This document shows positions 24,583-63,032 of a stretch of DNA of 64,000 bases, piece after piece. The notes under the pieces were generated by a model. The model made no database searches. It was not told the origin of the DNA and was given only the letters and a program-made list of their open reading frames with translations. This DNA is from Granulicella mallensis. Its GTDB lineage: Bacteria; Acidobacteriota; Terriglobia; Terriglobales; Acidobacteriaceae. Location: assembly GCF_014203225.1 (NCBI RefSeq), contig NZ_JACHIO010000005.1:1-64000 (forward strand), given 5' to 3'. The position numbers and the translations under genes were made by a program. Position 1 is the stretch's first letter. Each line of letters opens with the position of its first letter.

Positions 24583-24622
24583 TCTATTACCCTCAGTACC
24601 AATCCCAGCCTGGAGCTTGTCG

Positions 24623-24760
24623 TTGTTTGTTTTTCGCCGTCATCCTGAGCCATCGGCGAAGGACCCTCGCATCTGGGGGATACCTTAGAGGTCATTGCCA
24701 GCACGAACAAGATGCGGGGGTCCTTCGGCTGCGCCTCAGGATGACGACGAAAAACAAACA
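24623..24760. repeat. inverted GTCATCCTGAG-type repeat
   Basis: Left arm from 24623 (TTGTTTGTTTTTCGCCGTCA, then TCCTGAGCC and GAAGGACCC) and right arm ending at 24760 (GGGTCCTTCGG to CAGGATGACGACG and AAAACAAACA) form an imperfect long inverted repeat around a 50-base centre. The arms are the same module as at 3851-4016. It lies between divergently oriented genes, so it cannot simply be a terminator here. Confidence 0.8.
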
Positions 24761-24934
24761 AAGGCCAAGGCCTAGGCCTACAGCTATTGCAAACTATTGC
24801 GACAGCATTCCCAGAACGCTTCGATGCTACCGCAAGCTCACCGCCATCATGTCAAATCACCCTGCCTCTTCTGCCTGATTATTTTCTGTTTTCTAATTCC
24901 TGTTCCCTGTCTTTCACGGTCTACACTGCTACCT

Positions 24935-26890
<1,956 letters not shown>

Positions 26891-43719: not shown

Positions 43720-44360
43720 CTATCCACCTATCTCGGAATCCCTATCTCTGGTTCCACTCACACTTCAAAGAGGAGTTGGAGCACACTCCTCCCACACAGG
43801 CTGGTTGCTTGCTGTTCCGTTGAAAGATATGCGTCGCGCCCCTGCTTCCATCTACTTCTTGCTAAGTGCTACAAGCTATTGCATCCCTGCTTCCCTTGAC
43901 AATTCGGAGATTACGCGCCTCCCTGATACAACGCCACGACACAAATACAGCAGAATCTGACATCTTCGGATTGAACGATTACCCGGGCTAATGGGGAGCT
44001 TGCCATCAATCGGCAATTCACCGATCTGACATCGGGAATGAACACTAAAGGCAGACGTCGATTATGCCGTGCACTTCTGTAAACGACTTCTCAATCAAGG
44101 AAGACTGATTGGAGGACAATCTCTACACTCGAACTGGAATCAAGAATTGAAAGCGCGAGATAGGCAGCCATAGCTACTTCGACTAAAACTTCGATGTACT
44201 ACGTCCAGAGAATTGAGCACAGGGGCCCTGCACTCCAGGGCTCTCGCCCGTGACACAGATCAACCACATGTGCGACGAGAGATGAGATTCATGTCATAAA
44301 TTGCCTTGTCCGCGTCATGGTGTTGAGACGAAGCAGCGCCTAACATGAGCTTCACAGGGG
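43720..44360. other. 640-base gap without supported gene
   Basis: Stops occur in all frames. It has two hairpins, GGAGTTGGAGCACACTCC near 43770 and GGGCCCTGCACTCCAGGGC near 44223-44242. The latter could be a transcription attenuator or terminator. Promoters for the divergent rpiA and UbiA-like genes should lie here. Confidence 0.4.
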
Positions 44361-45308
44361 ATGAAGTCGAGACGCTTATCGATGAAGACCATCAACAATA
44401 CGATGTCGGTTGGACAAGGTGTGGCGGGGAGATTGAACCGAGATGAGATGAGCGAGAACTCAACACTCATTCGGTTTTTCCACCTCTGGCATTTGCTTTC
44501 CCTCGATGCGCCTACCGTTGCTGCCCTTTGGACCTGGTTCATTCCTACGGCTATTCACACGCATATATCTGCGTTTGCACCGCTTGCGATGTTTCTTGCT
44601 GTGTGGGTGCTCTATGCTTCCGACCGGCTCCTCGATGCTCGCCGGTCTGGCAGTAAGCCATCAGTCGTAGACGATCTCGAAGCACGCCACCGCTTCCACG
44701 ATCGCCATCGGAGCGCCTTCTCCATCGCAATCATTGCTACAGCGGTACCACTTGCACTGATTCTTCCTCACGTGCTTGATAGGGCTATGCATCTCTATCT
44801 CATACTGGGCGTTTTTCTTACCGGCTATTTCAGTCTCGTCCATATCATCGACTATGCCTATCGCCTCCCTAAAGAGTTGGTTGTAGGGTTCATTTTTGCC
44901 GCGGCCGTGTTCATTCCCGCAGTGGCGACCAGACCGGAACTCCAGGTTGGTCTGGCTCCAGCTGCTCTACTTTTTGCTGCTCTTTGCAGCCTCAATTGCC
45001 TCTTCATTTACTTCTGGGAACACGAGTCCAGTGGCTCCAATCTTTATCGCCCAGTACATTTCGTCACTCGTTTCGCACTTCGCTATCTGAGTCAGATCGC
45101 CACCGCTGTCATGGCCAGTGGAGTCATGCTTGCCTTTCTGGGCGTACTAATACCCAGGCCAATCTCACTGGCCTGTTCAGCTTCACTGTTCCTTCTATTT
45201 CAATTACACCGTAATCGCCGAATCATCTCTGCGACGACACTACGCGCGGCAGCAGACTTTGTTCTTCTTGCGCCAGTACTCTTTCTACCGTTTTTAACCT
45301 GCGCATGA
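44361..45308 (+). CDS. UbiA-like integral membrane protein, hypothetical
   Basis: A protein of up to 315 residues with seven to eight hydrophobic segments. The region LYASDRLLDARR near residues 94-105 resembles the first Asp-rich motif of UbiA prenyltransferases, but the second (Y-x-x-K-D-x-x-D) is not clear, so the enzymatic role is doubtful. Several in-frame starts exist: 44361, 44382, 44403 and 44448; the last gives MSENSTLIRFFHLWH, a natural N-terminus before helix 1, and has GAGATGAG upstream. A hairpin terminator begins directly after the stop. It is convergent with the aminotransferase gene. I cannot assign a substrate. Confidence 0.55.
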   Translation: MKSRRLSMKTINNTMSVGQGVAGRLNRDEMSENSTLIRFFHLWHLLSLDAPTVAALWTWFIPTAIHTHISAFAPLAMFLAVWVLYASDRLLDARRSGSKPSVVDDLEARHRFHDRHRSAFSIAIIATAVPLALILPHVLDRAMHLYLILGVFLTGYFSLVHIIDYAYRLPKELVVGFIFAAAVFIPAVATRPELQVGLAPAALLFAALCSLNCLFIYFWEHESSGSNLYRPVHFVTRFALRYLSQIATAVMASGVMLAFLGVLIPRPISLACSASLFLLFQLHRNRRIISATTLRAAADFVLLAPVLFLPFLTCA

Positions 45309-45334
45309 AGCAATCTAAAACAGTTTAGATTGCT
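45309..45334. terminator. hairpin after UbiA-like gene
   Basis: AGCAATCTAAA and TTTAGATTGCT form a perfect 11-bp stem around ACAG, starting one base after the stop codon. The stem is AT-rich, and no long T run follows on the plus strand (CCATGC), so efficiency is uncertain. Confidence 0.55.
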
Positions 45335-45480
45335 CCATGCGGCCATCTGCCATGATTACAATAGTTTGCCGTCTGCGACATCGACCTTACCCATATGCAG
45401 CTCGGTCACGCTAGACTGGTTATCGCCTAGCAAGTAGAGTCCCAAAGCACAACAAACGCTCGATTGATCATTAAGCAACC

Positions 45481-46743
45481 TTATGCTTCATGCTTTTCTG
45501 CCGCTGCGAATCGAACACACAGTGCAACAGCTTTCGCAGCCTGCCGAACTTCATCCAATTTAGGGAACGAAGGCGCAATACGAATCGTACGATCTTCAGG
45601 ATCATTTCCGTAAGGGTGCGTCGCACCTGCAGGAGTTAAAACGATACCAGCGTCCCTGGCCAATGCGACCACACGCTTCGCACATCCTGCAGGTACATCC
45701 AGACTGATGAAATAACCACCCTTAGGCTTAGTCCAGGTGATCCCCGAAAGCTGTGACAACTCAGCGGCAAAGATCTCCAGAACTGCTTCAAACTTCGGTG
45801 CCAGCAGCTCCCGATGCTTCTCCATCAGCGCAGCAATGCCTTCTTTATCTTTCAAGAAGCGAACATGGCGAAGCTGATTGACCTTATCGGGTCCAATCGT
45901 CCGTGGCGTCAAACGGCTCAACAACCACTGCACGTTTGGTTGCGATGCGGCCATGGCGGTAAGGCCTGCACCCGCGAAGGTGATTTTGGAGGTGGAAGCA
46001 AAGACGAAAACTCTATTCGCGTGTCCATACACGGCACTTCGCTCCAGGAGGTTGGCTATCGAGACCTGTTCCGAGGTAAGGTGATGCACTGCATAGGCGT
46101 TGTCCCAGAAAATACGAAAGTCGCCGGCTGCAGTTTTCATCGCGGCAAGTCGTTCCACTACCGCGTCGGAATAGATCGCGCCCGTTGGATTGCTGTATTT
46201 GGGAACGCACCACATTCCTTTAATCGATGGATCCGCGGCTGCGAGTTCTTCCACCTCATCCATATTGGGCCCATCTTCCTGCAGCCCGACAGAAATCATG
46301 CGAATACCGTAATCCTCACAGATCTTAAAGTGCCGATCATAGCCGGGAACAGGGCAGATAAAAGCGATATCGCTCTGTTTAGACCAGGGCTCGGGACTAT
46401 CGCAGGTACCCTTGAGAAGCGCGAATGCCACGATGTCATGCATTAAGGCAAGGCTGGCATTGTTCGCGATGACAATCTGTTCAGGCGGAGCTTCCAGCAT
46501 GCTGGAGAACAGATGGCGCACCTCACTCAAACCTTGCAACCCGCCATAATTACGAGTATCTACGGCATTCTCGGCCATAAAATTCGGCACACCAGGAAGG
46601 TTCAAGAGCTCGTTACTGAGATCGAGTTGCTGTGGGGATGGCTTCCCGCGCGTGAGATCTAAGGTAATACCTCGCTGCTGAAGTGCAAGGTATTCCGCTT
46701 GAAGCTGCTTCAAAGACATGCCGATCGCCTCCTGAGATTTCAT
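45481..46743 (-). CDS. PLP-dependent aminotransferase (class I, type Ic)
   Basis: A 420-residue fold-type I aminotransferase. The PLP Lys lies in ASTSKITFAGAG near residue 253, the cofactor-holding Asp/Tyr region in FWDNAYAVHHL near 214, and the substrate-binding Arg in DRTIRIAPSFP near the C-terminus. The sequence RGKPSPQQLDLSNELL at the start and RNYGGLQGL are like the type Ic aspartate aminotransferases found in many actinobacteria and others. It likely transfers amino groups between aspartate or another amino acid and 2-oxoglutarate. The start at 46743 may be replaced by the internal ATG at residue 9. It is convergent with the UbiA-like gene. Confidence 0.85.
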   Translation of the reverse strand: MKSQEAIGMSLKQLQAEYLALQQRGITLDLTRGKPSPQQLDLSNELLNLPGVPNFMAENAVDTRNYGGLQGLSEVRHLFSSMLEAPPEQIVIANNASLALMHDIVAFALLKGTCDSPEPWSKQSDIAFICPVPGYDRHFKICEDYGIRMISVGLQEDGPNMDEVEELAAADPSIKGMWCVPKYSNPTGAIYSDAVVERLAAMKTAAGDFRIFWDNAYAVHHLTSEQVSIANLLERSAVYGHANRVFVFASTSKITFAGAGLTAMAASQPNVQWLLSRLTPRTIGPDKVNQLRHVRFLKDKEGIAALMEKHRELLAPKFEAVLEIFAAELSQLSGITWTKPKGGYFISLDVPAGCAKRVVALARDAGIVLTPAGATHPYGNDPEDRTIRIAPSFPKLDEVRQAAKAVALCVRFAAAEKHEA

Positions 46744-46865
46744 CGCAGACTAATTTCCTTCAGACAAAATCACGCTAGAGCCAATTAGAAATCCAGCTTC
46801 GTCCTCAGTCAACGAGCCACGACGAGAACCGGCCAGAGCAACACAAGAGGCTGCATCAACCAAGC

Positions 46866-46895
46866 AAAAGTGGAACCATTCACATGGTTCCACTT
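46866..46895 (-). terminator. rho-independent terminator of the minus-strand gene
   Basis: AAAGTGGAACCAT (46866-46878) pairs perfectly with ATGGTTCCACTTT (46883-46895) around TCAC. On the minus strand it is followed by TTGCTT after the terminal TTT, giving a T-rich tail. It lies about 150 bases downstream of the end of the gene at 47039-47758. Confidence 0.7.
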
Positions 46896-47038
46896 TGCGG
46901 TTGCAAGATAACATCTAGGAGATTCCTGTAGCAAAAATCCTAGGGACCGCAGCCGTACAGCTATATGGGTATGGCCAGGTCGACTCGAACTACAGTGCTA
47001 CCAGAGTCCCAATTACATCGGTTCATAGGGCAATCGGT

Positions 47039-47758
47039 CTAACTGAACTTGATATCGTCCAGATCGACCGACACTACAAGAGGCTCCGAGAGAGGTGTGT
47101 TATCAGGTCTCCGAATAAACACTCGGTGCTTTACTGGGATAACGATCCCCTCCACCACTTTGTGCTCATAGGTATAGTGAGCCGCAGGGCTGCTGCCAGC
47201 AATATCAACATCGTAATCGTGGCGTTGCAGAAGACCGGACTGGTCAAAGTAGAAGATTTGCTGCTTGCTATGGGTTTCGATCGTATCGGGGAAGAGGACC
47301 TTCAAGCGGCGCCAAGTCGTCCCATTCTCCTGCCAGGGCTCGAGTTCCTCCGACTCCACACCTGGAAGAGCAAAGAGAAATGGCGTTGTCAGATATGTCC
47401 ACATTGCATAGCCGGCGAAGTACGCAAGCTGGAGATCATCCCAAGGAGTTTCCAGAGTGTGCCCTTCAAATGATTTACGCGGATTGAGCCGTTCCTTGAG
47501 AATGTCACCGGTTGAGGACTCAATTGCGACACGGAGGGGCTCAAGCACTGAGCGACGGCTACTCCCTGTAAAAGGCGTATGGGATGCCCACTCGCGATGG
47601 AGGTCCACGGTAACATGCGAGTCGTTGATTACACCGTCCTGGCCTTTCATTGACCAGAGTACCCCTCCAACCAATTGATGAGCACTCATTTGCTTAAACT
47701 CGCGCCAACGCTTTATGCCTCCGTGCGCATTCATTGCTAATTCAGCTAACTCATTCAT
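47039..47758 (-). CDS. conserved hypothetical protein
   Basis: A 239-residue protein with a good ribosome site (AAGGGAAG). It has no signal peptide or membrane segment. Features are NAHGGIKRWREFKQMSAH at the start, repeated aromatic and His residues in the middle (LQLAYFAGYAMWTYLTTPFL), and IETHSKQQIFYFDQSGLLQRHDYDV with AAHYTYEHKVVEGIVIPVKH towards the end. The last part resembles the beta-strand pattern of LolA/LolB-like lipid-binding barrels (a protein reading F-D-x-x-G-L-L-x-R-x-D-Y), but this is a weak guess. It is encoded 145 bases upstream of the HD-domain gene end on the same strand orientation; the two are separate units. Confidence 0.6.
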   Translation of the reverse strand: MNELAELAMNAHGGIKRWREFKQMSAHQLVGGVLWSMKGQDGVINDSHVTVDLHREWASHTPFTGSSRRSVLEPLRVAIESSTGDILKERLNPRKSFEGHTLETPWDDLQLAYFAGYAMWTYLTTPFLFALPGVESEELEPWQENGTTWRRLKVLFPDTIETHSKQQIFYFDQSGLLQRHDYDVDIAGSSPAAHYTYEHKVVEGIVIPVKHRVFIRRPDNTPLSEPLVVSVDLDDIKFS

Positions 47759-47903
47759 TTCGCTTCCCTTTCAGCTTGAGTATTCGAAACCCTCGAATGT
47801 GATAAACACAACACCCGTAGTGATCTCGTTGTAAACATCACCGGAGAAGGTGTACGGCAATCTACGCAGATCACCGTATACCTTCACCTATAAAAACAAC
47901 CTT

Positions 47904-48692
47904 CTAGGAATTCTGGAAAGGAGAATTCTGGATCTGATCGTAAAAGTTGCTGCGATTGTAGTTACGAATGAAATGTGAGCAGATGTCCTCGTTGCAGGTC
48001 GCTTCAGTGGTTTGTGTCTTATGTTCAAATCCACCGAGAAATGCCTTGGCGATGCTCTGCTTGAAATCGACACGAGGATATTCGGCAACCACCTTTTTAC
48101 GAATGTCCTCCGGAAACTCCTGATACCCGATGCCTAAGACGTCAAGGCCTACACCGTTGTAGAGTAGCTCGACCTCAACAGGTTTGTAAGCAGCGATGCC
48201 AGGCGTTGTATGCAAGGCGATTGCGTCCCATGCAGTCTGGATTCGCTCATTCGGCACCTTGTGATGTTCAAGGAATTGACGAACGGCATTGGCGCTATCA
48301 ACCTCAAAGCGGTCTGCCTCGCTGCTAAACTTTTTCAAAAGTCCGAGATCGTGAAAGGCAGCGCAGATAAACAGCAATTCAACGTCGAAGCTTTGCCCTG
48401 CCCTACGACCCTGCTCATTGGCCCAAAAGAAGACGCGATGGGAGTGATTGAAGAGAAGGGGTGTACTGAACTCACGCAAAAGGCCCGTAGCCTCTCTGGT
48501 CAGCTTACTGTCAGGAACTCCTGCTTGAACCCTTTGGTATTGCGATGCCGGAGTTGGTACTGGGATGACGACCTTGGGGCTGCGAAAGGTAGCAGGTGTT
48601 GGCGAGCCTCCCTGGGCGAGACCTACGGCTGTGACTCCTGCAACGGATGCCATTGGAGCACTTTTTAGAAAAACGCGGCGTGTAAGCGACAT
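47904..48692 (-). CDS. Tat-exported HD-domain protein (cyanamide hydratase-like)
   Basis: A 262-residue protein. The N-terminus MSLTRRVFLKSAPMASVAGV is a twin-arginine signal, so it is folded before export. The HD domain shows LLFNHSHRVFFWANEQG near residue 80, then LLFICAAFHDLGLLKKF with the metal-binding His-Asp, DSANAVRQFLEHH and IQTAWDAIALHTTPGI. This set is seen in the HD proteins annotated as cyanamide hydratase-like, although their substrates are mostly untested. The ATG at 48692 has AAGGAG upstream. It is interesting that a broken cyanate operon lies 2.3 kb away, but no functional link is shown. Confidence 0.8.
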   Translation of the reverse strand: MSLTRRVFLKSAPMASVAGVTAVGLAQGGSPTPATFRSPKVVIPVPTPASQYQRVQAGVPDSKLTREATGLLREFSTPLLFNHSHRVFFWANEQGRRAGQSFDVELLFICAAFHDLGLLKKFSSEADRFEVDSANAVRQFLEHHKVPNERIQTAWDAIALHTTPGIAAYKPVEVELLYNGVGLDVLGIGYQEFPEDIRKKVVAEYPRVDFKQSIAKAFLGGFEHKTQTTEATCNEDICSHFIRNYNRSNFYDQIQNSPFQNS

Positions 48693-49105
48693 GATCAATC
48701 TCCTTCGATCTAGGTTGTTGGTTCGTGGTCAGGCGATGATGTCTATTAATCGTCAATCTCTCGGAAGCTTGACTCTATAAAGAAACTAAGAGGAAGTCTT
48801 CCGCTATCGAATCAATCTTTCAAAATCGCACGATAGCTTGACTGCTGGTGAGGACTATCTTGTCGGTCGAGATACCTTTTGAAACTCTTGTCCACACCTT
48901 GTCTTGCTCCTAAGCGGTTATCGCTAAGACAAAGCTTAGAGTCGATCTCTTGCTACAACAACGACATAGACACGACACTTTCGGACATACATTCGCCCTC
49001 ATCGTTCAAGCATCAGGATGTCCGATATCGCTGCATCTGTGTCATGGCCCCAGCCCGTTAAGGCCGCTAGGATATCTACTGTTTCTTACAATACTCTGGG
49101 GGAAT
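48693..49105. other. 413-base divergent gap
   Basis: Between the divergent HD-domain and alpha/beta hydrolase genes. No gene found. It should contain both promoters; I cannot name a clear pair of elements. Confidence 0.4.
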
Positions 49106-49813
49106 ATGGCGCATTTTACCGTTTTGACAGGCTCCGAAACTCGGCCACTTTCATGGCAGACTTTGCAGACTCAATTGGAGATCAGCGGACATACGACCGC
49201 CGTAGTGAGCTTGAATAATGTCTCATGGGCATCCGGACTCGATGCAGCAGCAGATGCCTTAGCTCAGAAGGTCGGACCAACATCGCGAGCCATACTCATC
49301 GGTCATTCCATCGCAGGATTGGTCCTGCCCGCTCTCGGAGACAGACTCGGTGCCATGTCAGAGATCTATGTTGCAGCCTTCCCTCCCCAAAGAGGACAAA
49401 GTTTCTTCGATCGATTGCTTTCGGGTGAAGAAATTTACGATCCCACATGGGTAGACGGGTACCAAAGCCTGATCCGGTCGAAAGATCCTCTGACCACACA
49501 TCGCCACTTTCTTGATTACCATCTGTTCCACGATTGCCGCGCGGATACCGCAGATTTGTACTGGAAAAAATCAGAACTGCCGCTTGATGTGATTTACAGC
49601 ACTCCCTACCTATCAGAACTTTCTCTAAGGAGCAGGCATTACATTGTCTGTGCTTCAGATCGGACGGTCAGGCCTGAGTGGCAGAGGCACGCGGCATCTC
49701 TATTGCCTTACGCAAGCGTTACAGAGATAGACTGCGGACATTGCCCACAAATCGCGAGACCTGTGGAGCTAGCCCAGCAACTCCTTCTGGCTGCAAATCA
49801 TCTCGATGCCTAA
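49106..49813 (+). CDS. alpha/beta-hydrolase fold protein
   Basis: A 235-residue hydrolase. The nucleophile elbow is ILIGHSIAGLV near residue 68, with the catalytic His in IDCGHCPQIARP near the end and an acid likely in VCASDRTVRPEW. The start at 49106 has GGGGGA five bases upstream and gives AHFTVLTGSE, the usual first strand; the open frame before it is not typical. The early Asn/His oxyanion HG motif of many relatives is absent, and the segment LTGSETRPLSWQ takes its place. Function is likely an esterase or a C-C hydrolase, with unknown substrate. It runs towards the GlxA-type regulator, 219 bases away. Confidence 0.8.
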   Translation: MAHFTVLTGSETRPLSWQTLQTQLEISGHTTAVVSLNNVSWASGLDAAADALAQKVGPTSRAILIGHSIAGLVLPALGDRLGAMSEIYVAAFPPQRGQSFFDRLLSGEEIYDPTWVDGYQSLIRSKDPLTTHRHFLDYHLFHDCRADTADLYWKKSELPLDVIYSTPYLSELSLRSRHYIVCASDRTVRPEWQRHAASLLPYASVTEIDCGHCPQIARPVELAQQLLLAANHLDA

Positions 49814-50032
49814 TCATCAAGAGGGCTTATCGTGTATCTTCGTGAATCAACGGTCCCTAAGCCTGTGCTATTAAACGACGAAAATTATGCAAAGACTTCT
49901 TCTGCGCTGATAGACGCCGGTGCGGCCCGATGGAATTCGCAGCAGACCTTGAAGGATGCCATTTAGCCCAGAAGGACCACAAGCACGTGATTGAGCGTGA
50001 TCAAGATTTTTGATATCCCGTAGAATGCTGGG

Positions 50033-50980
50033 ATGCGAAGAGTCGTCATTGTCGGTCAGCCTCCGGTCCAGATTTTGGATGTGACTGGCCCGTTAGAAGT
50101 TTTTTGTAATGCCCCCGGTTATGAGGTGCAGATCGGTAATCCCGGTATGGAAAACTCTCTACGCACTCATAGAGGTGTTTCACTCACTGACGCTGCTCCG
50201 ATCAAAGAGATCAAAGGACCGATTGATACATTGGTGATTGCCGGCGGACCTGGGTCGGAGACAGGTATCTACGATGAGGAGTTCGTCTCCTGGATCGCAG
50301 AAGCTGGTGCACGCTCTCGCAGAATAGCGTCTATTTGTACTGGAGCGTTTCTCCTGGCGGCAGCAGGGCTTCTCGATGGCAAGGAAGCCGTAACGCATTG
50401 GCATTTCTGCGATCGGTTGGCGAAGGAGTTTCCTAAGGTTAAAGTTCGCCCTGAGCCAATCTTCTTACGTGATGGGTCCGTGTACACGTCAGCCGGCATC
50501 ACCGCTGGCATCGATCTCTCTCTCGCACTAGTCGAAGAGGATCATGGGCACCGGGCAGCTCTGGACGTCGCCCGTTTCCTGGTGATGTTCCTGGTACGTC
50601 CGGGAGGACAGGCACAGTTTAGCCATATGTTGTCCAGACAGGCGGTAACGTCACAACCACTCCGAGAACTGCACGTATGGATGCTGGAGAATCTGAAAGC
50701 CGACCTTTCGGTTGATAATCTTGCCGATAGGATGGGCATGAGCGCGAGGCATTTCACTCGGGTTTGCCTAAAAGACACGCAGATGAATCCAGGGCAGTTC
50801 GTCGACAGAATGAGAGTCGAGGCAGCTCGGCAATTAATCGACAGTTCTACGATGGGATTAAAAGAAGTTGCCGACCAGTGTGGTTTTAGTACAGCAGATT
50901 CAATGCGCCGGGTCTTCCTGCGTGTTCTTGGAATCACGGCCGGCGAGTATACAAACCGCTTCAAGAGCACAATGGCCTAA
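50033..50980 (+). CDS. GlxA-family regulator (DJ-1/PfpI plus AraC domains)
   Basis: A 315-residue regulator with an N-terminal DJ-1/PfpI domain (VVIVGQPPVQILDVTGPLEV, VIAGGPGSETG, and the nucleophile-elbow Cys in RIASICTGAFLLAAAGLLDG at about residue 102) and a C-terminal AraC domain (LSVDNLADRMGMSARHFTRV and GLKEVADQCGFSTADSMRRVF). Such proteins sense small molecules or amino compounds through the first domain. It is on the plus strand, just upstream of the dead cyanate operon, whose cynR fragment is on the opposite strand and convergent to it. Nothing else in the sequence tells its regulon. Confidence 0.9.
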   Translation: MRRVVIVGQPPVQILDVTGPLEVFCNAPGYEVQIGNPGMENSLRTHRGVSLTDAAPIKEIKGPIDTLVIAGGPGSETGIYDEEFVSWIAEAGARSRRIASICTGAFLLAAAGLLDGKEAVTHWHFCDRLAKEFPKVKVRPEPIFLRDGSVYTSAGITAGIDLSLALVEEDHGHRAALDVARFLVMFLVRPGGQAQFSHMLSRQAVTSQPLRELHVWMLENLKADLSVDNLADRMGMSARHFTRVCLKDTQMNPGQFVDRMRVEAARQLIDSSTMGLKEVADQCGFSTADSMRRVFLRVLGITAGEYTNRFKSTMA

Positions 50981-51037
50981 TGCAGCACCTCGCAAGCTAT
51001 GATTAATTCTGCGGGGTAGAAACTCAAACAGATACTC

Positions 51038-51632
51038 CTAGCTGACCGCACTATAGCAATCCAAGCCCGTCTGGGCTGATTTGTAATGAGCTACCATTCG
51101 ATTAAATGACTTTACGTATATGCGCGCCGCAGCGCTCTCATATGCGCTGCGGCGCCGAAGAAGTGCTGCTGTCCGATTTGGTATCGCAGGCTTCAACATG
51201 ATTGGACGAAGCTCCCCATGCTCGTCCGCAATTCGGACGGGAAGTATCGTAATCAGCCGTCCTCGGCGAACAATCTCAACGATTGCACTGATAGTATTCG
51301 CCTCGATCGAGATATGAGGGGCAATGCCTTGTGCCTGAAAAACAGATCTACATATTGCCGCGTCACAAAGTCGGTTGTAAGAAGAGCGAGTGATTCCCCT
51401 GCAGCTCGCTTTTTGTCATGGTAAGGCCTTGCTTAATGCTGGAAAGAGAGGCTGCCACCATTACACTTAATTTCTCTACAAATAGGGGGCGGCAATCAAT
51501 CTCGGGTGAACGCACTTTGGAGAACGCAATCCAAGATCGAAGTTGTCTTCCATCAAAGCGGGCTCCATCTTGTCCTGCATCATCTTCTGGATGTTGAGTA
51601 GTATGCCCTGATAACGCGCGCTAAAGGTTTTT
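51038..51632 (-). pseudogene. cynR: cynR-like LysR regulator, fragment with frameshifts
   Basis: This minus-strand region codes, in shifting frames, for the effector domain of a LysR regulator of the CynR type. Reading from 51632: FSARYQGILLNIQ and KMMQDKMEPALMEDNFDL; then, after a slip near 51554, GIAFSKVRSPEIDCRPLF with LSVMVAASLSSIKQGL; then LLTTDFVTRQYVDLFF; and after another slip near 51345, QAQGIAPHISIEANTISAIV with EIVRRGRLITILPVRIADEH to the stop at 51038. At least three one-base slips are needed. The helix-turn-helix half is missing, because the fragment begins at the junction with the cynT relic. No ordinary open frame marks this gene, so it is easily missed. Confidence 0.85.
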
Positions 51633-51633
51633 A

Positions 51634-52052
51634 TATGCTGTAACCGCAATGAGCGTCACCAATATCCTAATCTGCGGCTATTCCGATTGTGGAGCGATGA
51701 CAGCGATCTCTACGTCCAAGTGCCTCGACCACCTGTCAGCAGTCGCAAATTGGCTTCGCGATACGGAGTCGGCCAGAATCGTCAACGCAGCACGCACTTA
51801 TTCCTTTCCCGAGGATCGGCTCAATTTTCTCATCCACGATAATGTCGTCGCTCAGCAGCAAATATCAAAACCCATCCGGCGGTGGCTCTGGCCCTGAAAG
51901 AAAGCTGACTCACCCTACAGGGATGGGTCTACGACATCGAGAAGGGGTCTATCGATGCACTCGATGGAGGGACCAACAGATTTGTCTCCCTCTCGCAGTT
52001 CCCAGATAAGCGTGCGTTGGTGTCGAAACCCAACAACTTCATTTCACAGTAA
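51634..52052 (+). pseudogene. cynT: cynT-like beta-carbonic anhydrase, fragment
   Basis: The region begins in mid-gene with YAVTAMSVTNILICGYSDCG AMTAIS, the central motif of beta-carbonic anhydrases. The zinc ligand His of the usual CGHSDCG is Tyr here, and the earlier Cys ligand is lost with the N-terminal third. After HDNVVAQ a frame slip near 51858 leads to NIKTHPAVALALKE, a TGA at 51906-51908, and then LTLQGWVYDIEKGSIDAL with DGGTNRFVSLSQF to the stop at 52052. CynT removes or recycles bicarbonate for cyanase. With a missing N-terminus, a frameshift, a stop codon and a changed metal ligand, it cannot work. Confidence 0.87.
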
Positions 52053-52069
52053 AACTGAAAGGAAATAAC

Positions 52070-52521
52070 ATGCCTAGATCAGAATTCAGCCAAGCCGCAC
52101 GTCTCGAGCTCACTTCCGATATCCACGGTGCCAAAAGCAAGAAAGACCTGACCGATGGAACCGGCCCAAGCATCGCGTTCGTTGCCGCTGCCCTGTCCGG
52201 CCAGCACGCATTACATGAGAGGGCCGCAGAAGTGGTCGGCAAGAAACTTGATCTCAATACCAATGCAGTCGCCCTCCTGCAGAGCATTCCGATGCGCGGC
52301 AATGTCCCCGGTCACGTAGCAACATCTATCACTTTTACGACATGCTCCAGATCTACGCCACAACCTTAAAGGCATTGATTCACCAGCAGTTTGGCGATGG
52401 CATCATCAGTGCTATCAATTTCAGGAGGGACATCACAAAAATCGATGCCCCTGAAGGTGGATCACGCGCAGTGATTACACTGGACGGAAAGTTTCTGCCA
52501 GTCAAACCTTATAGGTCATAG
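52070..52521 (+). pseudogene. cynS: cynS-like cyanase, frameshifted
   Basis: Cyanase turns cyanate plus bicarbonate into ammonia and carbon dioxide. The first frame (from the ATG at 52070, with AAAGGAAA upstream) gives ARLELTSDIHGAKSKKDLT DGTG, AFVAAALSGQHAL and [18 protein letters not shown]. Compared with known cyanases, five residues (SFAEI-type) after KKDL are gone. Near 52325 a small out-of-frame deletion leads to [20 protein letters not shown] and [15 protein letters not shown] to the stop at 52521. The residues equivalent to catalytic Arg96 and Glu99 of E. coli CynS read His and Asp, while Ser122 remains (GIISAINF). So the gene is broken and its active site eroded. Confidence 0.88.
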
Positions 52522-52633
52522 CCCTCCCCTCCACCGATCAATGTCCTGCACGCCCTTTGATCCAATTATTAGGCCGCAGGATAATTTTGTGAATACACTT
52601 GCCATTTGAATGAATCATACGTTCTGGAGTAAT

Positions 52634-53614
52634 ATGCAAACCACGCGCAGTAGACACACGGCATTTCTCGGGGGTGAACTGTTGACCCTGTTTTACATGG
52701 CAGCCATCGCCTTCCTGGCTCGCAGGACTGGTTTCTCCCTGCTCTTGTTTCCTGAACTTGCTGCGCTATCACATGATGTTTTTACCCGGTCTCGGGGGAA
52801 ATGGGCGAATCAGCCATGGCTGCTCATCATAACCCCAACGATTACCGCCATCTTCGGTCTCCTGGTCGTACGCCATACGCACTTTAACTCTCTTGCTTTA
52901 ACATTGATCGTGCTGGTCAGCCTCATCGTAATCAAACTACTCAAATCTACAATCGCGCCAGCTATCTCTGCGGGTGTACTCCCGATGGTTCTCACCGAAC
53001 GCAGCTGGATTTATCCCCTGGGTATCTTTATTGGCCTCAGCGCACTCGTCTCACTCCTTCTGATCTGGAAACGATATGGCCCTAAAGACGAACACCCCTC
53101 TGCAGAAGAGGAAATCAACTCTAAGGTGGTCGATGAACTCGAGGAGCCACCTCACGACCGTTTCTGGGGGATCGCTCTGCTGGTGTTTGTGCTGGTTTTA
53201 GCGACAACGGCACAGATTACAGGGCTTTTCTTTTTGATATTTCCGCCCTTGATCGTAGTGGCCTATGAAATTCTGGGCCATCCTGAAGTCCCAAGTTGGA
53301 TGGCTCGCCCGGTCCTGTTCCCGCTGATAAGTTTCCTCACCGCATCAATAGGGCTCCTAGCCTGCCACATCTTCAATTTCAGTTTTGTTGGTGTAGTCGT
53401 AGCGATGCTTTGTTCGATCATCCTTCTTCGGATATTCAAAGTGCACATGCCTCCGGCATTGGCAGTAGGCATACTTCCGTTTGTGATGGAGGCTCCCAAC
53501 TACCGATACCCGATATCCGTGCTGCTCGGAACAATCGCACTTATGCTGTATTTTTGGGGCTATAGCAAATTGCGAGAGATTCAACAGTTGACGCAGCTCA
53601 ATCGTAAAGCATAA
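52634..53614 (+). CDS. HPP-like membrane protein with tandem duplication
   Basis: A 326-residue integral membrane protein made of two similar halves of four to five helices each, joined by a charged linker (about residues 155-180, EEEINSKVVDELEEPPHD). The halves show matching segments: FSLLLFPELAALSHDVFT versus FLIFPPLIVVAYEIL, and AISAGVLPMVLTERSWIYP versus ALAVGILPFVMEAPNYRYP. The pattern P-x-A-x-A-x-G-x-L-P is like the HPP domain, which other bacteria and plastids use for nitrite movement, but the HPP signature itself appears only partly (HMPPALAVG). The start at 52634 is preferred, as GGAG lies 5 bases upstream; an ATG at 52610 also exists. It follows the dead cynS gene. Confidence 0.7.
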   Translation: MQTTRSRHTAFLGGELLTLFYMAAIAFLARRTGFSLLLFPELAALSHDVFTRSRGKWANQPWLLIITPTITAIFGLLVVRHTHFNSLALTLIVLVSLIVIKLLKSTIAPAISAGVLPMVLTERSWIYPLGIFIGLSALVSLLLIWKRYGPKDEHPSAEEEINSKVVDELEEPPHDRFWGIALLVFVLVLATTAQITGLFFLIFPPLIVVAYEILGHPEVPSWMARPVLFPLISFLTASIGLLACHIFNFSFVGVVVAMLCSIILLRIFKVHMPPALAVGILPFVMEAPNYRYPISVLLGTIALMLYFWGYSKLREIQQLTQLNRKA

Positions 53615-53689
53615 GGCGGAGGAGTAAACTCCACATTACAAATGGATATGATGTAAGAGTTACCAGTTGATAAGTGAGCAAAAAAACAG

Positions 53690-53722
53690 AAATGTGGTAA
53701 TTCCATCGGGATTACTACATTT
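53690..53722 (+). terminator. rho-independent terminator after HPP-like gene
   Basis: AAATGTGGTAATTCC (53690-53704) pairs with GGGATTACTACATTT (53708-53722) around ATC, with wobble pairs at two positions, and TTCCATTTCC follows. It sits 75 bases after the gene's stop in a strongly AT-rich stretch. Confidence 0.6.
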
Positions 53723-54018
53723 TCCATTTCCATGTAGCACTTTAAAGATCAACGCAGGTTAGATTTGCTTGCTCTTCCAAAATCCACAACAAATTAATCT
53801 AATAATATAATTAAATTCAACAGTCCGAACTATTTACTAACGGAGCTACTCATTGCGCTGGGCATTTGAAATAGGCGTGCTGCATCCACCTAGGCTACTA
53901 GTCAACACAACTGCTCTACTATACTTCGAAATAAAATTGGAGCTATAGAAATCTTTTTTAGGATTCTGTAGCCCTTTGTGATCGCCGTTGAGCCTGTTTG
54001 GCTTACGCACAACTTCAG
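53723..54018. other. AT-rich intergenic stretch
   Basis: About 300 bases, the most AT-rich part of the window (for instance around 53780-53830). No gene is supported. Confidence 0.45.
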
Positions 54019-54297
54019 TTACATTATCCAACGGCTGTACAAATGAATCGCCAGAGCTCCCATGAGTGGTGCCAGAGCTACTTCGGCGTAGATAGCCATG
54101 TAGATTCCAGTTACATGATTTTGATAGAACTCCTCTGAATTGCTCGCACCCGCATCAGCTACGCTCTTAGCTATGCCTGCAGCAATCGTCCGTACCTCCG
54201 CGCGAATGCTCCGTGAGTTGTTATTCTTGATCGTCTTAAGAGGCCGCCTAGAGCTTAAGACACCTGAATTGAAAGTTACTGAAGTCGTCGTGCTCAT
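54019..54297 (-). CDS. small membrane-anchored protein, paralog 2
   Basis: A 92-residue protein homologous to the product at 35289-35567. Shared features are the Ser/Thr-rich start (MSTTTSVTFNSGVLSSRRP), a basic middle with NNNSRSIRAEV, EEFYQNHVTGIYMAIYAEVA and the hydrophobic end with LMGALAIHLYSRWIM. The ATG at 54297 has a good AAAGGAGA site. As in the first copy, an in-frame leader of 23 codons from a GTG (54366) is kept, and upstream DNA with TTTTTTGCTGGATTT and GTCGTGGCA is shared. No family is recognised. Conservation of both the protein and the leader suggests that the 5' region matters for expression. Confidence 0.72.
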   Translation of the reverse strand: MSTTTSVTFNSGVLSSRRPLKTIKNNNSRSIRAEVRTIAAGIAKSVADAGASNSEEFYQNHVTGIYMAIYAEVALAPLMGALAIHLYSRWIM

Positions 54298-55109
54298 GAT
54301 TGGATCTCCTTTAGGGGCTAATAACCCTCTACTTGCAAGATAATCTCGCCACACGAGATATGCCACGACACAAATCCAGCAAAAAAAGACAAGTGATTTT
54401 CCCGAAGCCTCTCTACTTTGAATTCATCCTCTTCTCTGGGGAATCAGTCAAAGCGTGATCATTTCCATTTCTTAACGCTTCCTGTGGACAGGCAGCTTTT
54501 CTGGCAGAACAATGATTCACAAGCTCTCACCTCTCCACGCGCGTCTAGACTGTTTAGGATTCAAGGCGACGATGAGCTTATTTCTGTATCGTTCTGCGTG
54601 CCGTTGTCCCTATGGAGATTTGATAGTAATCTCCCATTCGTGATGAGTTCATCTGTTCTCGCGGTCTCTACCTATCGAACAAGCTCCACAAGTCGTGCAT
54701 TTTCGCAAACACTAATTCATTTGCGAAAGACTTTCGGCTCTTACTTTGCTATCAATCTAGATAGGGATACTTGCATTTCGATATTAGGCGGACAATCAAG
54801 TTGGACGGACGGCTTCGAGGCAGCATAGCTTGTATACGACCACACCGAAACGAATGACACCCGGCTGCCGAGCAGGAGATCTACGTATACCAAAATACTG
54901 GTCGCTAGCTTGATGTCGATCTATTCATCGTATTGATCGACATCCGTAAGACCCAATTTCTATCAACCATCGAGATGTTACGGGTCGGCTCTCTTCATTT
55001 GACGATAGACGGAAAGAAAATCGGCCTCAAAGCACTAGAGCTTGGTTTGAGCTCGGATTCAGCGTCGTCTACCCAATTTTCAAGCACAACAAGCAAAACG
55101 GAGGACTAA
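54298..55109. other. gap with conserved leader and a dyad
   Basis: The first 110 bases are the 5' region shared with the paralog at 35568-35680. An open frame at 54418-54828 (TTG start, 136 residues) has no ribosome site or family features and is not called. At 54912-54944 GATGTCGATC and GATCGACATC form perfect 10-base arms around 13 bases; being about 170 bases upstream of the alcohol dehydrogenase gene, it could be an operator or a terminator. Confidence 0.45.
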
Positions 55110-56135
55110 ATGTCAGAGACGAAATCCATGTACCGTGCTTTTCAGGCTGTCAGCCCCGGAAAGTTAGAGATGACGATGAAGCCGGTCGTCGATCCCCTCC
55201 CCGGATATGTCCGCATCCGAGTCGAGGCATGCGGGGTCTGCCACTCTGACGCGGGAACGGTTGAGGGCGTCTTTCCTATTGAATGGCCGCGTGTCCCCGG
55301 CCATGAGGTCGTAGGCCAGATCGATGCCATGGGTGAAGGCGTCGAAGGCTGGACCATTGGCCAGAGAGTTGGCGTTGGGTTCCTGGGTGGAAACTGTGGA
55401 CATTGCCTATTTTGCCGCGGAGGAGACCTGGTCAATTGTAAGAATCAGGATTACACCGGAATTCAGCATGACGGCGGTTATGCAGAAGTCATGATCGCTA
55501 AGGCGAGCGGACTCATCTCCATCCCAGATGATCTCTCTTCCGTGAATGCAGCGCCCCTTCTCTGTGCTGGCCTTACGACCTTCAGTGCATTGCGCGACTC
55601 ACCAGCAAAGGCCGGCGACCTGGTTGCAGTGTTGGGAATTGGTGGACTGGGGCATCTCGGATTGCAGTATGCGCGGCAGATGGGATTTGAAGTCGTGGCT
55701 ATCGGACGAGGTTCCGACAAGACCGAACTGGTAAAGAAGCTTGGAGCACATCACTATATTGACAGTTCAACCACGGACGTTGCCCAGGCCCTGCAGGCAC
55801 TCGGTGGGGCCTCTCTGATATTGGCCACAGCGTCTGGGGGTAAAGCAACGGCAAAGGCCGTGAAGGGGCTTCGTCCTCGAGGCCGTCTCCTCGTCCTTGG
55901 GGTAACTCCCGATCCAATCGAGCTGTCATCCGCCGAGTTGATCTTCGGCACGCGATCCGTTGAAGGAAGTTTGACGGGAAATGTCGCTACAGGAGACACG
56001 ACGCTCAAATTTAGTTCACTTACTGGTGTGGCTGCAATGATCGAGACGATGCCTCTCGACCGAGCCCCCGAAGCCTATGCGCGCATGATGTCTGGCAAAG
56101 CGCGATTCCGTGTCGTCCTCACAATGAACTCATAG
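55110..56135 (+). CDS. zinc-dependent alcohol dehydrogenase
   Basis: A 341-residue medium-chain dehydrogenase that oxidises alcohols or reduces aldehydes with NAD(P). The catalytic zinc site shows CGVCHSDAGTVEG (Cys near 43) and PGHEVVGQIDAMGEGV with the His and Glu. The structural zinc site is GNCGHCLFCRGGDLVNC, four Cys. The Rossmann loop is VAVLGIGGLGHLGLQYA near residue 175. It most resembles AdhA/AdhP-type enzymes. The ATG at 55110 has GGAGG upstream. It fits the detoxification theme of the region and might act with the aldehyde dehydrogenase at 63033, though the two are not in one operon. Confidence 0.92.
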   Translation: MSETKSMYRAFQAVSPGKLEMTMKPVVDPLPGYVRIRVEACGVCHSDAGTVEGVFPIEWPRVPGHEVVGQIDAMGEGVEGWTIGQRVGVGFLGGNCGHCLFCRGGDLVNCKNQDYTGIQHDGGYAEVMIAKASGLISIPDDLSSVNAAPLLCAGLTTFSALRDSPAKAGDLVAVLGIGGLGHLGLQYARQMGFEVVAIGRGSDKTELVKKLGAHHYIDSSTTDVAQALQALGGASLILATASGGKATAKAVKGLRPRGRLLVLGVTPDPIELSSAELIFGTRSVEGSLTGNVATGDTTLKFSSLTGVAAMIETMPLDRAPEAYARMMSGKARFRVVLTMNS

Positions 56136-56251
56136 CGATGGAGCTGGCCCATTCTAATGATGTCCGAATTTGACGTATCCGTGTCGTGGCGCAGCACTGC
56201 AGATCAATCTATCTTCTAGTTGTAAGCAAGGCTCTGAAGGAGAAATTGAGA

Positions 56252-56812
56252 ATGAATACGATAACGACAGCTCCAGCATGGGAATCGACGCCGGCTCCAC
56301 ACTTGCCTCTTCCAAATTTCTCAACGATCTCGATCATAGACACGGACTCTTCGGTGCGGCGTGTAGGATTCACGTGGCCTGGGAACTCCAGCGTCTCTGT
56401 TGCAGTCTTCTATTCTGTAGAGTCGTTTTTGCGTTCCCACGCTGCGGCTTCCACAGATCTATTGATACTTGGTCACACGCACTCTCACCCCTCAGAATGT
56501 GAGTCGATTCTCTGGGTTGCAGAACTGCGGCCAGACTTAAAGGTTGTTTTGTTGAATGGAGAGGATTTCACACTGCGCAGGCTTTCTGATCTACGCGAAC
56601 CCCGGCAAAACTCTCAGTCGGAGAGCAAGCCTTCCATTCGACTTGCGATTCTTTCCGCATTTCTGAGCTCATGCGAGGCACTAAGACCTTGCACGCACAA
56701 ACAGCCCCAGCCAGAAACGGTCTCGCAACGCCTCGATCATTATCGTGCCAGCGGGATTTCCTCGACTTATGGTCTTTGGACGGCACTTGCAGGATCTTCC
56801 GCTCATTCATGA
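56252..56812 (+). CDS. degenerate receiver-like protein
   Basis: A 186-residue protein whose residues 24-105 resemble a response regulator receiver domain: ISIIDTDSSVRRVGFTWPGN at the start, then VAVFYSVESFLRSH, and STDLLILGHTHSHPSECESI followed by RPDLKVVLLNGEDF. These correspond to the acidic pair, the F-x-S-x-E-x-F-L segment of FixJ-type proteins, the phospho-acceptor strand and the Thr/Lys strand. The acceptor Asp of LLILD is Gly here and the K-type residue is shifted, so phosphorylation is unlikely. The C-terminal 80 residues are Ser-rich with no output domain recognised. The ATG at 56252 has AAGGAGAA upstream. An atypical or decaying regulator is the best description. Confidence 0.6.
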   Translation: MNTITTAPAWESTPAPHLPLPNFSTISIIDTDSSVRRVGFTWPGNSSVSVAVFYSVESFLRSHAAASTDLLILGHTHSHPSECESILWVAELRPDLKVVLLNGEDFTLRRLSDLREPRQNSQSESKPSIRLAILSAFLSSCEALRPCTHKQPQPETVSQRLDHYRASGISSTYGLWTALAGSSAHS

Positions 56813-56989
56813 TGAGGTCTCAATTGCCATGCTCATTTGCAAACCCGCTCCAATGGGAAGAGTTGTAACTTAGCTTCTGTTTGAACAGAGTAGAAACGAC
56901 ATCCTATATCTCGATGCCAGATAGACATTCGGTAGACAATCAGCGTTCGGGTCATCAACACCAGCCTCATCCATACGGAAAGGTCTAAA

Positions 56990-58003
56990 ATGCCACAACC
57001 AACTAGAAGTCTCGCCACGATTTGTCGCGATCGTGCAGTTCTAAGAGCGATGTATGTTGTTATCACTTTCTGCTTTTCGACCTCGCTTGCCTTTTCTCAG
57101 ATTCCGCCGACTACCGTCTCTGCGCCCACAGCTGCTACGCCACATGATTACTTTCATACCGGCGCAGGAGCCTTCTACTTACGCAGAGCGGAGGGCGATA
57201 TCGTTACAGAAACCTTGCGCGGAAACATTAGCGTGCTGTTCGGTTCTGGCGCCAACATTATTGTCTTATCGGGACCGCAGGGCAAGTTTCTTGTCGACGC
57301 TGGAATCAGCGTGTCCGAGCCTAAGGTGAAGGCTGCACTTAACAAGATCAGCCCTTCACCGCTAAAATATGTGGTAAACACTCACTGGCATTGGGATCAT
57401 ACCGATGGCGATGGCTGGATGCACGAATCCGGCGCAACAATCATTGCACACCCGAACACCCTCAAACACCTGTCCCAATCCACTCATGTCGACGATTGGA
57501 ATTGGACGCTTCCCCCCGTATCGATCGGAGCGCGCCCAACGCTTCTGGTAGCGGACAAGAAAAACTTCTTCTTCGACGGGGAGAAGATCCAGGTAGAATA
57601 TTATGGTCCCGGGCATACAGACGGTGACCTGTTGATCTACTTCGAAAAAGCAGACGTCTTGGCTCTCGGAGATACCTTCTGGAATGGCAACTATCCATTT
57701 ATCGACAACGAGGATGGTGGCAACATCAATGATGCAATCAAGTGGGCCGACAAGTTAGTTGAACGCACCACTGATAAAACGATTGTGGTTCCTGGCCATG
57801 GACCTGTAGGTACACGAGCGCAGTTGATCGAGTTCCGCGACATGCTGACAACGATTCGTGATAATGTAGCCGCCCTAAAGCGGCAAGGCAAGTCACTGGA
57901 CGAAATTATCGCCGCGAAGCCGACAGCCAAGTTTGATGCGAAATGGGGACATTTCGTAATTGCCCCCGATCACTTTGTTCGGCTAGTCTATGCAGGATTG
58001 TGA
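56990..58003 (+). CDS. exported metallo-beta-lactamase-fold hydrolase
   Basis: A 337-residue secreted MBL-fold enzyme. The signal peptide (AMYVVITFCFSTSLAFSQ) is followed by the zinc motif NTHWHWDHTDG at residues 131-141 (HxHxDH), then GPGHTDGDLLIYF, VLALGDTFWNG and VVPGHGPVG. The set of ligands (HxHxDH, H, D, H) matches glyoxalase II-like hydrolases and the Zn-hydrolases beside quinoprotein enzymes. A true beta-lactamase is possible but not supported by any specific motif. It is transcribed from its own region, 177 bases after the receiver-like gene. Substrate unknown. It may take part in the removal of toxic thioesters or similar compounds. Confidence 0.85.
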   Translation: MPQPTRSLATICRDRAVLRAMYVVITFCFSTSLAFSQIPPTTVSAPTAATPHDYFHTGAGAFYLRRAEGDIVTETLRGNISVLFGSGANIIVLSGPQGKFLVDAGISVSEPKVKAALNKISPSPLKYVVNTHWHWDHTDGDGWMHESGATIIAHPNTLKHLSQSTHVDDWNWTLPPVSIGARPTLLVADKKNFFFDGEKIQVEYYGPGHTDGDLLIYFEKADVLALGDTFWNGNYPFIDNEDGGNINDAIKWADKLVERTTDKTIVVPGHGPVGTRAQLIEFRDMLTTIRDNVAALKRQGKSLDEIIAAKPTAKFDAKWGHFVIAPDHFVRLVYAGL

Positions 58004-58415
58004 GGTACTAAATGCGAGAACAACTTTACTGCAGAATAACCACCGCCACAATTAACAGCTATCGATTGTGTCTGATCAGGCAATTCATAGCTTGCTTGTC
58101 AGCAAACGAAAATCGACAAGTTATCTTTAATCACTATTTCTCCCCGGGGTAAATTCGCTTGATTTCCCCGGGAGGATCGAGAGTCGGAGAGCTCCATGTA
58201 TGGCTGAGCTCGCGCTATCCCTTTCATTGCGGTAATGCTTACGAGCATTTATACCTTGACGACATTGTGGTCTTCGACGTTGATGAGATCAAGGAAGGTT
58301 TTGCCTTGCGGCGTTTGGCGCCAACCTTTCAGATCGGAGGAGCCGCTTCTCGCAGATGCCAGCGCACTCATGGACATTCTCAGAGATGAGACATCTATGT
58401 AACATACGATGTTCC
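58004..58415. other. gap with CCCGGG-type dyad
   Basis: 412 bases between convergent genes. At about 58141-58176 CTCCCCGGGGTAAAT and ATTTCCCCGGGAG form an imperfect hairpin that may terminate either transcript. Short open stretches on both strands after 58180 look partly coding-like but match nothing I know. Confidence 0.4.
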
Positions 58416-60020
58416 TCAATGACCTGCGGAGGGTTCACCCGAAGGTACAAACTTCCTAATGAAGAAGGCCAGAGGCACACTTGCCAGGGTTATCCAGCCA
58501 ATGACACGGAAACAGTCCATAAAGGCCAGAAACTGCGTTTGATCGTGCAACTGCCTATAGATTGTGCCAAACGCTCCGATGGCTGCGTCCGGTCCTGTAA
58601 ATCCTTTACTAACCAGATAGTTTGTCATTGTGTGGATATGCTGTTGAAGGCTTTGCGAACTGGAACCGAGCCCCGACCCCACATTCACCTGATGCAGGTC
58701 CTGACGTCGCTCAGCTGCCGTCGTGATAAATGCGATACCAAAGCTGCCACCCCAGTTACGAAATAGATTTGTGAGACTGGAAGCTTTATTGTTCTGCTCT
58801 GGACGCAACATGGAGTAGGCGATCATATTCACGGGAACAAAGAAGAATCCATAGCCGATCCCCTGAAAGACTCTGCCCATCAGATAGTGCCCGCCGTTCG
58901 TGTCCAGATTCATGGTGCTGAAGTGCCACAATGAGGCTCCGACGACCGACAGACTGAAGGTCATCATCATCCTTGGAGAGACAATACGTCTTTGAAGCAG
59001 GAGTGCTGAAATAGGTGCGAGAACCGTGATGACGAGAGCTCCAGGTCCGAGCACTAATCCAGCATCAATCGCCCTGTAACCATAAAGCGCCTGGAGAAGC
59101 TGCGGCACGAGGGTCGTGGTTCCGAAGAGTCCAAGTCCAAAGACAAAAAACAATACTGATGCAATCGCGAAATTTCGATTCTTCAACAATCGGAAGTCAA
59201 TAATTGGCTCATCGACGTAGAGTTCCCAGAGGATGGTTCCAATCCATCCCAGTACCGCAATCCCCAAGCTCCAGCAGATGAAGTTGCTTCCGAGCCAGTC
59301 ATCGATCTGACCGCGATCCAAGGTTATCTCCAACGCTGCGGATGCCAGTGTGATCAGGGCAATGCCCGTTCCATCGATTGCGATCTTGCCAGTCTTACGT
59401 AAAGCTGCCCGTTCCGCGCTAAAGGCTGGCGGATCTTGAATGAGCTTCGTCGTCAGAAACAGCGCGAGCAGCCCAATGGGTACATTGATAAAGAAGATCC
59501 AGCGCCAATTGTAGTTGTCTGTAATCCATCCCCCGAGCACCGGTCCAATTGCGGGCGCGGTAACCAGCACAACGGTATAGAGTGCAAAGGCAGATGCCCT
59601 TTTTGACGGGGGGAAAGTATCTACCAGAATTGCCTGTGCCACCGGCGCAAGACCGCCGCCTCCGATGCCTTGGAGAATGCGGCAGACCAGCATGAATCCC
59701 AGTGAGGGCGAGATGCCACATAAAAACGATGTCACAGTGAACAGTCCGACGCAGACCAGGTAGTAATTCCTCCGCCCAAAAACACGGCTCAACCATGCGC
59801 TCATCGGTAGGATGACAGCATTGGCGACAAGGTACGTCGTAAGTATCCAAGTCACCTCATCGTAGCTTCGTCCAAGGCCCCCTCCGATATAGGGAAGCGC
59901 GACATTTGCAATCGACGTATCCAGCAGCTCCATAAAGGCCGCGAGCATGACGGTAATTGCTATAAACCAAGGATTGATCGCAGACTTCCTGTCTGCGAGT
60001 TGCTCCGGAGTTGTCTTCAT
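58416..60020 (-). CDS. emrB: DHA2-family MFS drug efflux permease (EmrB-like)
   Basis: A 534-residue inner-membrane drug/proton antiporter with 14 predicted helices. Family features are MELLDTSIANVALPYIGG in helix 1 (the D-x-x-I-x-N-V-A-L-P motif), AWLSRVFGRRNYYLVCVGLF, RILQGIGGGGLAPVAQ and GPVLGGWITDNYNWRWIFFI, all of the DHA2 group. It should form the pump of a tripartite system with the EmrA-like and TolC-like proteins encoded upstream. The start at 60020 (MKTTPEQLADRK) follows a GGAGGAGA stretch about 16 bases away; an upstream start at 60071 is possible but overlaps the spacer. It is the last gene of the operon, 59 bases after emrA. Confidence 0.93.
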   Translation of the reverse strand: MKTTPEQLADRKSAINPWFIAITVMLAAFMELLDTSIANVALPYIGGGLGRSYDEVTWILTTYLVANAVILPMSAWLSRVFGRRNYYLVCVGLFTVTSFLCGISPSLGFMLVCRILQGIGGGGLAPVAQAILVDTFPPSKRASAFALYTVVLVTAPAIGPVLGGWITDNYNWRWIFFINVPIGLLALFLTTKLIQDPPAFSAERAALRKTGKIAIDGTGIALITLASAALEITLDRGQIDDWLGSNFICWSLGIAVLGWIGTILWELYVDEPIIDFRLLKNRNFAIASVLFFVFGLGLFGTTTLVPQLLQALYGYRAIDAGLVLGPGALVITVLAPISALLLQRRIVSPRMMMTFSLSVVGASLWHFSTMNLDTNGGHYLMGRVFQGIGYGFFFVPVNMIAYSMLRPEQNNKASSLTNLFRNWGGSFGIAFITTAAERRQDLHQVNVGSGLGSSSQSLQQHIHTMTNYLVSKGFTGPDAAIGAFGTIYRQLHDQTQFLAFMDCFRVIGWITLASVPLAFFIRKFVPSGEPSAGH

Positions 60021-60079
60021 GATTGCCACTTTCGTTCTCCTCCAGATAATCCGAACGTTCTGTAGATGCAAGGTTCAGT

Positions 60080-61336: not shown

Positions 61337-61337
61337 T

Positions 61338-62834: not shown

Positions 62835-63032
62835 GGTAGTCCTCCTTCAACGTCGCATCGGCGCTCTCGAAGGAGTTCGGATGTGATTCCGTAGCCGATA
62901 ACATTGAATCCCGTCCGTCAGACTTTGCGTATGACACTGCTGAGCTAATTGCGTTCCGCACTGGATAAATGTGCCCCAGTCCTCGGCTTCCCACTCTTGC
63001 CTGCAAGCGGAGGACTGGACATGGACAACGCG
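62835..63032. promoter_or_regulatory. leader region of the efflux operon
   Basis: 198 bases between the aldehyde dehydrogenase stop and the TolC start. It probably holds the operon's promoter and operator. No regulator gene (TetR, MarR or AcrR type), usual beside such operons, is present in the window. Confidence 0.35.

Follow-up and report, generated by a model that had tools for sequence, protein, structure and literature searches.

The window analysed here, a stretch of 64,000 nucleotides from Granulicella mallensis, carries at 51110-52512 a cynR(-)/cynT(+)/cynS(+) cluster of the Paraburkholderia/Pseudomonas kind in which all three genes are broken. Very probably, a CynR-regulated cyanate operon of proteobacterial type was acquired and then decayed beside an intact cyanase. 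The operon, with its LysR regulator, beta-carbonic anhydrase and cyanase, would have entered the genome, probably as part of a larger island that lies downstream of glmS. The divergent cynR/cynT control region and its surroundings, about 0.69 kb in all, are missing, probably through one deletion to judge from the coincident ends of the two genes, and small indels, a stop and replacements at conserved positions have built up in the genes. The loss was probably tolerable given the resident cyanase, which is intact and under constraint; redundancy may have been its cause. Horizontal gain followed by pseudogene decay is an ordinary phenomenon.

A Divergent Cyanate Operon

The cluster was delimited with the Cyn proteins of the Paraburkholderia saeva operon (L010) as tblastn queries. 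Residues 110-285 of CynR, the effector-domain part, match 51110-51634 on the minus strand (E 1e-30). CynT matches 51634-52046 on the plus strand with residues 83-217 (E 3e-42), in two pieces of residues 83-156 and 158-217. Residues 1-93 and 94-156 of CynS map to 52070-52512 on the plus strand (E 3e-46), within a pseudogene that spans 52070-52521 and retains its start codon. Pfam models applied to the separate open pieces give LysR_substrate on 51476-51649(-) at 1.4e-4, which is under the Pfam cut-off, Pro_CA on 51649-51894(+) at 2.5e-7, CYNS_N on 52070-52366(+) at 4e-18, and Cyanate_lyase on 52342-52518(+) at 3.5e-19, the last in another frame than the CYNS_N piece. The open pieces 51038-51199, 51363-51515 and 51842-52006 carry no Pfam family at a useful score. 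By these similarities the cluster is genuine, and a chance match is far excluded. An earlier note on this DNA had read a LysR effector domain on the minus strand and a divergent beta-carbonic anhydrase and cyanase on the plus strand; the Pfam strands and tblastn agree with it, and the matches to other families that it had said would speak against this reading did not appear, both searches giving CynR, CynT and CynS instead.

The order and strands of the three genes are those of L010. The same three families in the same divergent order are found in L011 and L006 as well, the three operons being from Paraburkholderia and Pseudomonas; their CynT proteins are 54-69% identical to the window over the matched pieces, and the CynS proteins of L010 and L011 52-75%. 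These operons have uninterrupted frames of the usual length, whereas the window copies are all broken and lack the control region. Relatives of P0002, the closest full-length relative of the window CynS that was found, are encoded in 256 genome stretches; the best 80 of the 256, together with L006, made up the 81 loci used for comparison. A cynR(-) ORF followed by a cynT(+) ORF lies near cynS in 55 of the 81, and 53 of these could be measured. The E. coli cyn cluster likewise has a LysR regulator, a carbonic anhydrase and a cyanase, its gene content being given as cynR, cynT, cynS and cynX in the available part of the source (PMC6627978). In contrast to E. coli, no gene for a transporter of the cynX kind is seen after cynS in the window, where the next gene has a TM_HPP match. 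Among the matches listed, E. coli DNA is represented by 189 bp at 70.5%, in cynS.

Loss of the Control Region

The main lesion is a junction at 51632-51636, which the earlier note did not contain. The CynR match starts at 51634 with 46 of 61 references, the remaining 15 starting between 51616 and 51772, and the CynT match starts at the same base with 58 of 60. These counts leave out L032, which has an overlong fused CynR ORF, and L014, whose CynT ORF of 100 aa gives no usable CynT match. Measured against the 53 operons, the length missing between the cynR and cynT matches has a median of 688 bp (range 662-888). Gone are residues 1-109 of CynR, with its HTH, the divergent promoter region, and residues 1-82 of CynT. 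Because the CynR and CynT ends coincide, as is observed directly, we infer that a single deletion removed both 5' ends together with the promoter region. The earlier note had reported that CynT lost its start; the N-terminus is indeed missing, but what was lost is 82 residues, along with 109 of CynR at one junction.

A longer CynR match starting at 51652, obtained with two or three references, was set aside: the same bases align as opposite-strand CynT codons.

Damage within the Genes

CynR has three frame changes in a frame-aware alignment, whichever of the four references is used. The first lies at 51528 with all four, the second at 51397 with three and at 51403 with one, and the third at 51332 with three and at 51328 with one. 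A CynR of the LysR type has an N-terminal HTH and an effector domain; the window has residues 110-285 alone, across three frame changes.

CynT contains one frame change (~51857) and one TGA (51906-51908), both with 2/2 references. Cys39, Asp41, His98 and Cys101, which we take to be the zinc ligands of this beta-carbonic anhydrase, are invariant in the 60 fetched CynT relatives over 190 aa. The window has Tyr in place of His98 and retains Cys101, while Cys39 and Asp41 fall in the missing part; the set of zinc ligands of a beta-carbonic anhydrase is thus incomplete.

CynS shows one frame change and eight missing residues with 2/2 references. Five of these are missing in one block, and three further residues at the frame change itself, near 52320-52326. 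In place of one open frame of ~156 codons, CYNS_N and Cyanate_lyase, both present, lie on two pieces in two frames. The catalytic residues of cyanase are Arg96, Glu99 and Ser122, according to the part of the source available (PMC3070753); the window has His96, Asp99 and the retained Ser122, and in addition Gly105Ala. Position 96 is Arg in all 82 relatives (the 81 loci and P0002). The earlier note had described at least three slips in CynR, Tyr for the zinc-binding His with a slip and a TGA in CynT, and a five-residue loss, a frame slip and His for Arg in CynS, all of which are borne out by these alignments.

Its further claim, that Asp stands at the position of catalytic Glu, is correct as an observation and is not clear evidence of decay. 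Position 99 is Asp in both the window and P0002 and Glu in the other 81 relatives. Asp99 cannot be counted as damage because the closest full-length relative also has it. Identity between the window CynS and P0002 is 78% over 151 columns; the closest full-length relative found for CynT, P0003, shares 104 of 133 residues. P0002 and P0003 are full-length, unlike the window genes, and among the compared relatives Arg96His and CynT His98Tyr are found in the window alone. It is conceivable, though we hold it rather doubtful, that the window gene and P0002 represent a line of functional cyanases in which Asp takes the place of the catalytic Glu99.

Poor polishing typically leaves single frame changes, and several lesions here are of that form; the frames might accordingly be broken in the assembly alone, through sequencing or polishing errors, with the operon intact in the cell. 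We give this almost no probability. Base slips cannot delete 0.69 kb so that two divergent genes are cut off at corresponding points, nor can they place Tyr, His and Ala at positions conserved in the family, and on either side of the cluster the genes at 50033-50980 and 52610-53614 have frames uninterrupted from end to end. The retained start codon of CynS, a purine-rich stretch upstream of it and an open frame of 99 codons could also suggest that a piece is still used as a small protein of new function, either the 99-residue CynS N-terminal frame or the C-terminal frame. This is extremely improbable: positions conserved in the family are changed, the promoter region is missing, and a search with the CynS N-terminal piece returned two matches, the window itself and one full-length cyanase. 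Genuine decay of all three genes is the reading followed below.

Horizontal Acquisition

The earlier note had left the operon as either acquired or ancestral. Acquisition is the part that stands: of 399 genomes sampled from the class, the type occurs in one, the present one, and the block that holds it is absent from the related genome G002. The cyn operon was acquired horizontally, and its source was probably another bacterial group. This DNA was not found in 27 genus relatives, except for two short matches (92 and 101 bp, 69-71%) to the orphan cyanase genes of G012 and G010. A cyanase is detected by the family model in 4 of 61 genomes, the present one included.

Some match to P0002 is nonetheless seen in 19 of the 399 class genomes, which would be in keeping with a cluster ancestral to the genus or class, lost everywhere else and now vanishing here. 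Such a history is very unlikely. Outside the cyn operon, the full-length class matches share 41-49% identity with P0002 (for three partial matches it is 39% over 96, 63% over 52 and 48% over 40 residues), the genus's orphan cyanases group apart with 100/100 support, no other sampled genome of the genus or class has the same type, and the colinear site of G002 is without Cyn matches. Horizontal acquisition remains the preferred reading.

One class match, L141 (G288:C13:141711-141830), comes from another genus of the same family and is perhaps another broken cyanase: it covers 40 residues, and two TAG stops interrupt its frame.

The named relatives nearest to the window type belong to Proteobacteria and Actinobacteria, and in a tree of 87 cyanases the pair formed by the window and P0002 is not joined to any named genus. 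A search of a plasmid collection with 50000-54000 gave matches in 84 records. In the 20 records listed of these 84, the cyn matches are 66-71% identical, and therefore no near donor is present among them; several other listed matches are to the GlxA-like neighbour gene. E. coli genomes match in 4205 of 5426 cases, all at 60-80%. Base composition shows no contrast at the operon (0.50-0.52 GC). In the cyanase literature, as far as its text was available, no account of this case was found, including any of horizontal transfer in Acidobacteria.

The remnants lie in a genome-specific block of ~62-64 kb, from C5:26896 to about 88.75-91.3 kb, of which 26896-64000 is in the window. Colinearity with G002, at 94-96%, runs to position 26895 of the window, shortly after glmS, and resumes at about C5:91319 at 94%, with one 0.75-kb match at 82% from about C5:88751. 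Between the same flanks G002 has a different stretch of 11.9 kb, without a match to any of the three L010 Cyn proteins. Because the flanks are colinear and the content between them differs, the cyn remnants are within a block that is not at this place in G002; that a close relative lacks the block while its flanks stay colinear is one mark of a genomic island. The earlier note had proposed looking in related genomes for an intact operon at the same place, and at the colinear site of G002 there is none. The empty site was located by these flanks because no relative was found to have both the GlxA-like and the HPP gene, which stand on either side of the operon, next to each other. In the other genus genomes, matches to 44001-64000 are scattered and gene-sized only.

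The block begins no more than a few bases from the glmS end (24797-26890 and following). Tn7-like elements are known to target the region downstream of glmS. Close to the left block end lies an AAA_30 piece (28032-28610), and DDE_Tnp_1_assoc and DDE_Tnp_1 pieces occupy two overlapping frames at 28940-29730; these pieces are probable remnants of mobile DNA. No tRNA is found in the window or in L146, L147 and L148. Short sequences of ~50 bases at 24617-24672, 24712-24761 and 23838-23889 resemble REP elements; among the matches listed, they recur at many places and in both orientations in G002 and G010, and at some places in G001. The HD-domain and GlxA-like genes (47904-50980) duplicate, in diverged form, a pair of neighbouring genes that is present in G000:C11 and G002:C1, with 57-60% and 73-74% identity to those copies.

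The Resident Cyanase

The same genome has an intact cyanase frame at C20:35173, in another clade than the window CynS. It belongs with the orphan cyanases of the genus (G000:C20, G002, G010 and G012), which form a separate group on a long branch (100/100). These are members of the cyanase family with open frames, in which the catalytic Arg, Glu and Ser are present in the alignment; those of G000, G002 and G010 are 45-46% identical to P0002. Between the C20:35173 cyanase and its G002 counterpart dN is 0.012 and dS 0.199 over 149 codons (dN/dS ~0.06), and therefore the gene is under constraint, not in decay. No CynT match was found in 13-15 kb around any of the four orphan cyanases. LysR-type matches, 23-27% identical to CynR, lie near those of G000, G002 and G010; the one ~2 kb from C20:35173, at 27%, is too weak to be called CynR.

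The earlier note had concluded that cyanate detoxification was lost. Given the constrained cyanase at C20:35173, that conclusion is not supported: to judge from the sequence of this gene, the capacity for cyanate breakdown is probably retained in the genome, and the thing lost is the acquired, CynR-type version.

Time of Inactivation

In the tree the window CynS and P0002 are sisters (support 100/99), with tip lengths of 0.43 for the window and 0.074 for P0002, a ratio of ~6 that residues beside the frame change inflate slightly. Damage was counted in columns at least 97% conserved in the family, without changes shared with the sister. CynS is changed in the window, and not in the sister, at 7 of 60 such columns, a count that drops P89, D91 and P92, which lie beside the frame change, and leaves out the shared E99D and F156Y. 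CynT is changed at 3 of 32 (the shared L88M not counted); in a smaller CynT set the window differs at 4 of 30, L88M included. Taken together, the two proteins have 10 changes in 92 conserved columns in the window vs 1 in 92 in the full-length sisters (Fisher p 0.009), where CynS column 48, which differs in both window and sister, is counted on both sides.

When all CynS columns are taken, window and P0002 disagree at 10/63 conserved and 23/88 variable ones, and four full-length CynS relatives differ from P0002 at 4-5/63 and 40-47/93. For CynT, the window differs from P0003 at 3/32 conserved and 25/100 variable columns, against 1/32 each and 27-39/100 for five full-length relatives. Most of the CynT divergence would thus have arisen under constraint, because the excess in conserved columns is small and the variable columns are no more different than in full-length relatives.

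A simple simulation converts 10/92 into a neutral estimate of ~0.05 changes per base (about 0.02-0.10). At synonymous sites the divergence from G002 is 0.22 in glmS and 0.20 in the orphan cyanase, or ~0.10 per lineage. On this scale inactivation, neither very fresh nor ancient, would fall about midway between the split from G002 and the present, with a wide error (about a fifth to all of that time), and lineage-specific changes that predate inactivation would lower the neutral estimate. The earlier description of the inactivation as fairly recent fits the CynT differences, which are mostly in variable columns, but sits less well with a window tip ~6 times that of its sister and with ~0.05 neutral changes per base.

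Implications

The operon offers a clean and roughly datable example of a regulated, laterally acquired catabolic operon dying in a host that encodes, at an unlinked site, another enzyme for that reaction. When the sequence across a divergent promoter is lost, regulator and target are disabled together. If the tentative reading of Asp99 is true, the lineage of P0002 and the window shows that Glu99 is exchangeable, despite the decay of the operon in Granulicella mallensis. Pseudogenes alone are no proof of a lost capacity, as the same genome keeps a constrained cyanase.
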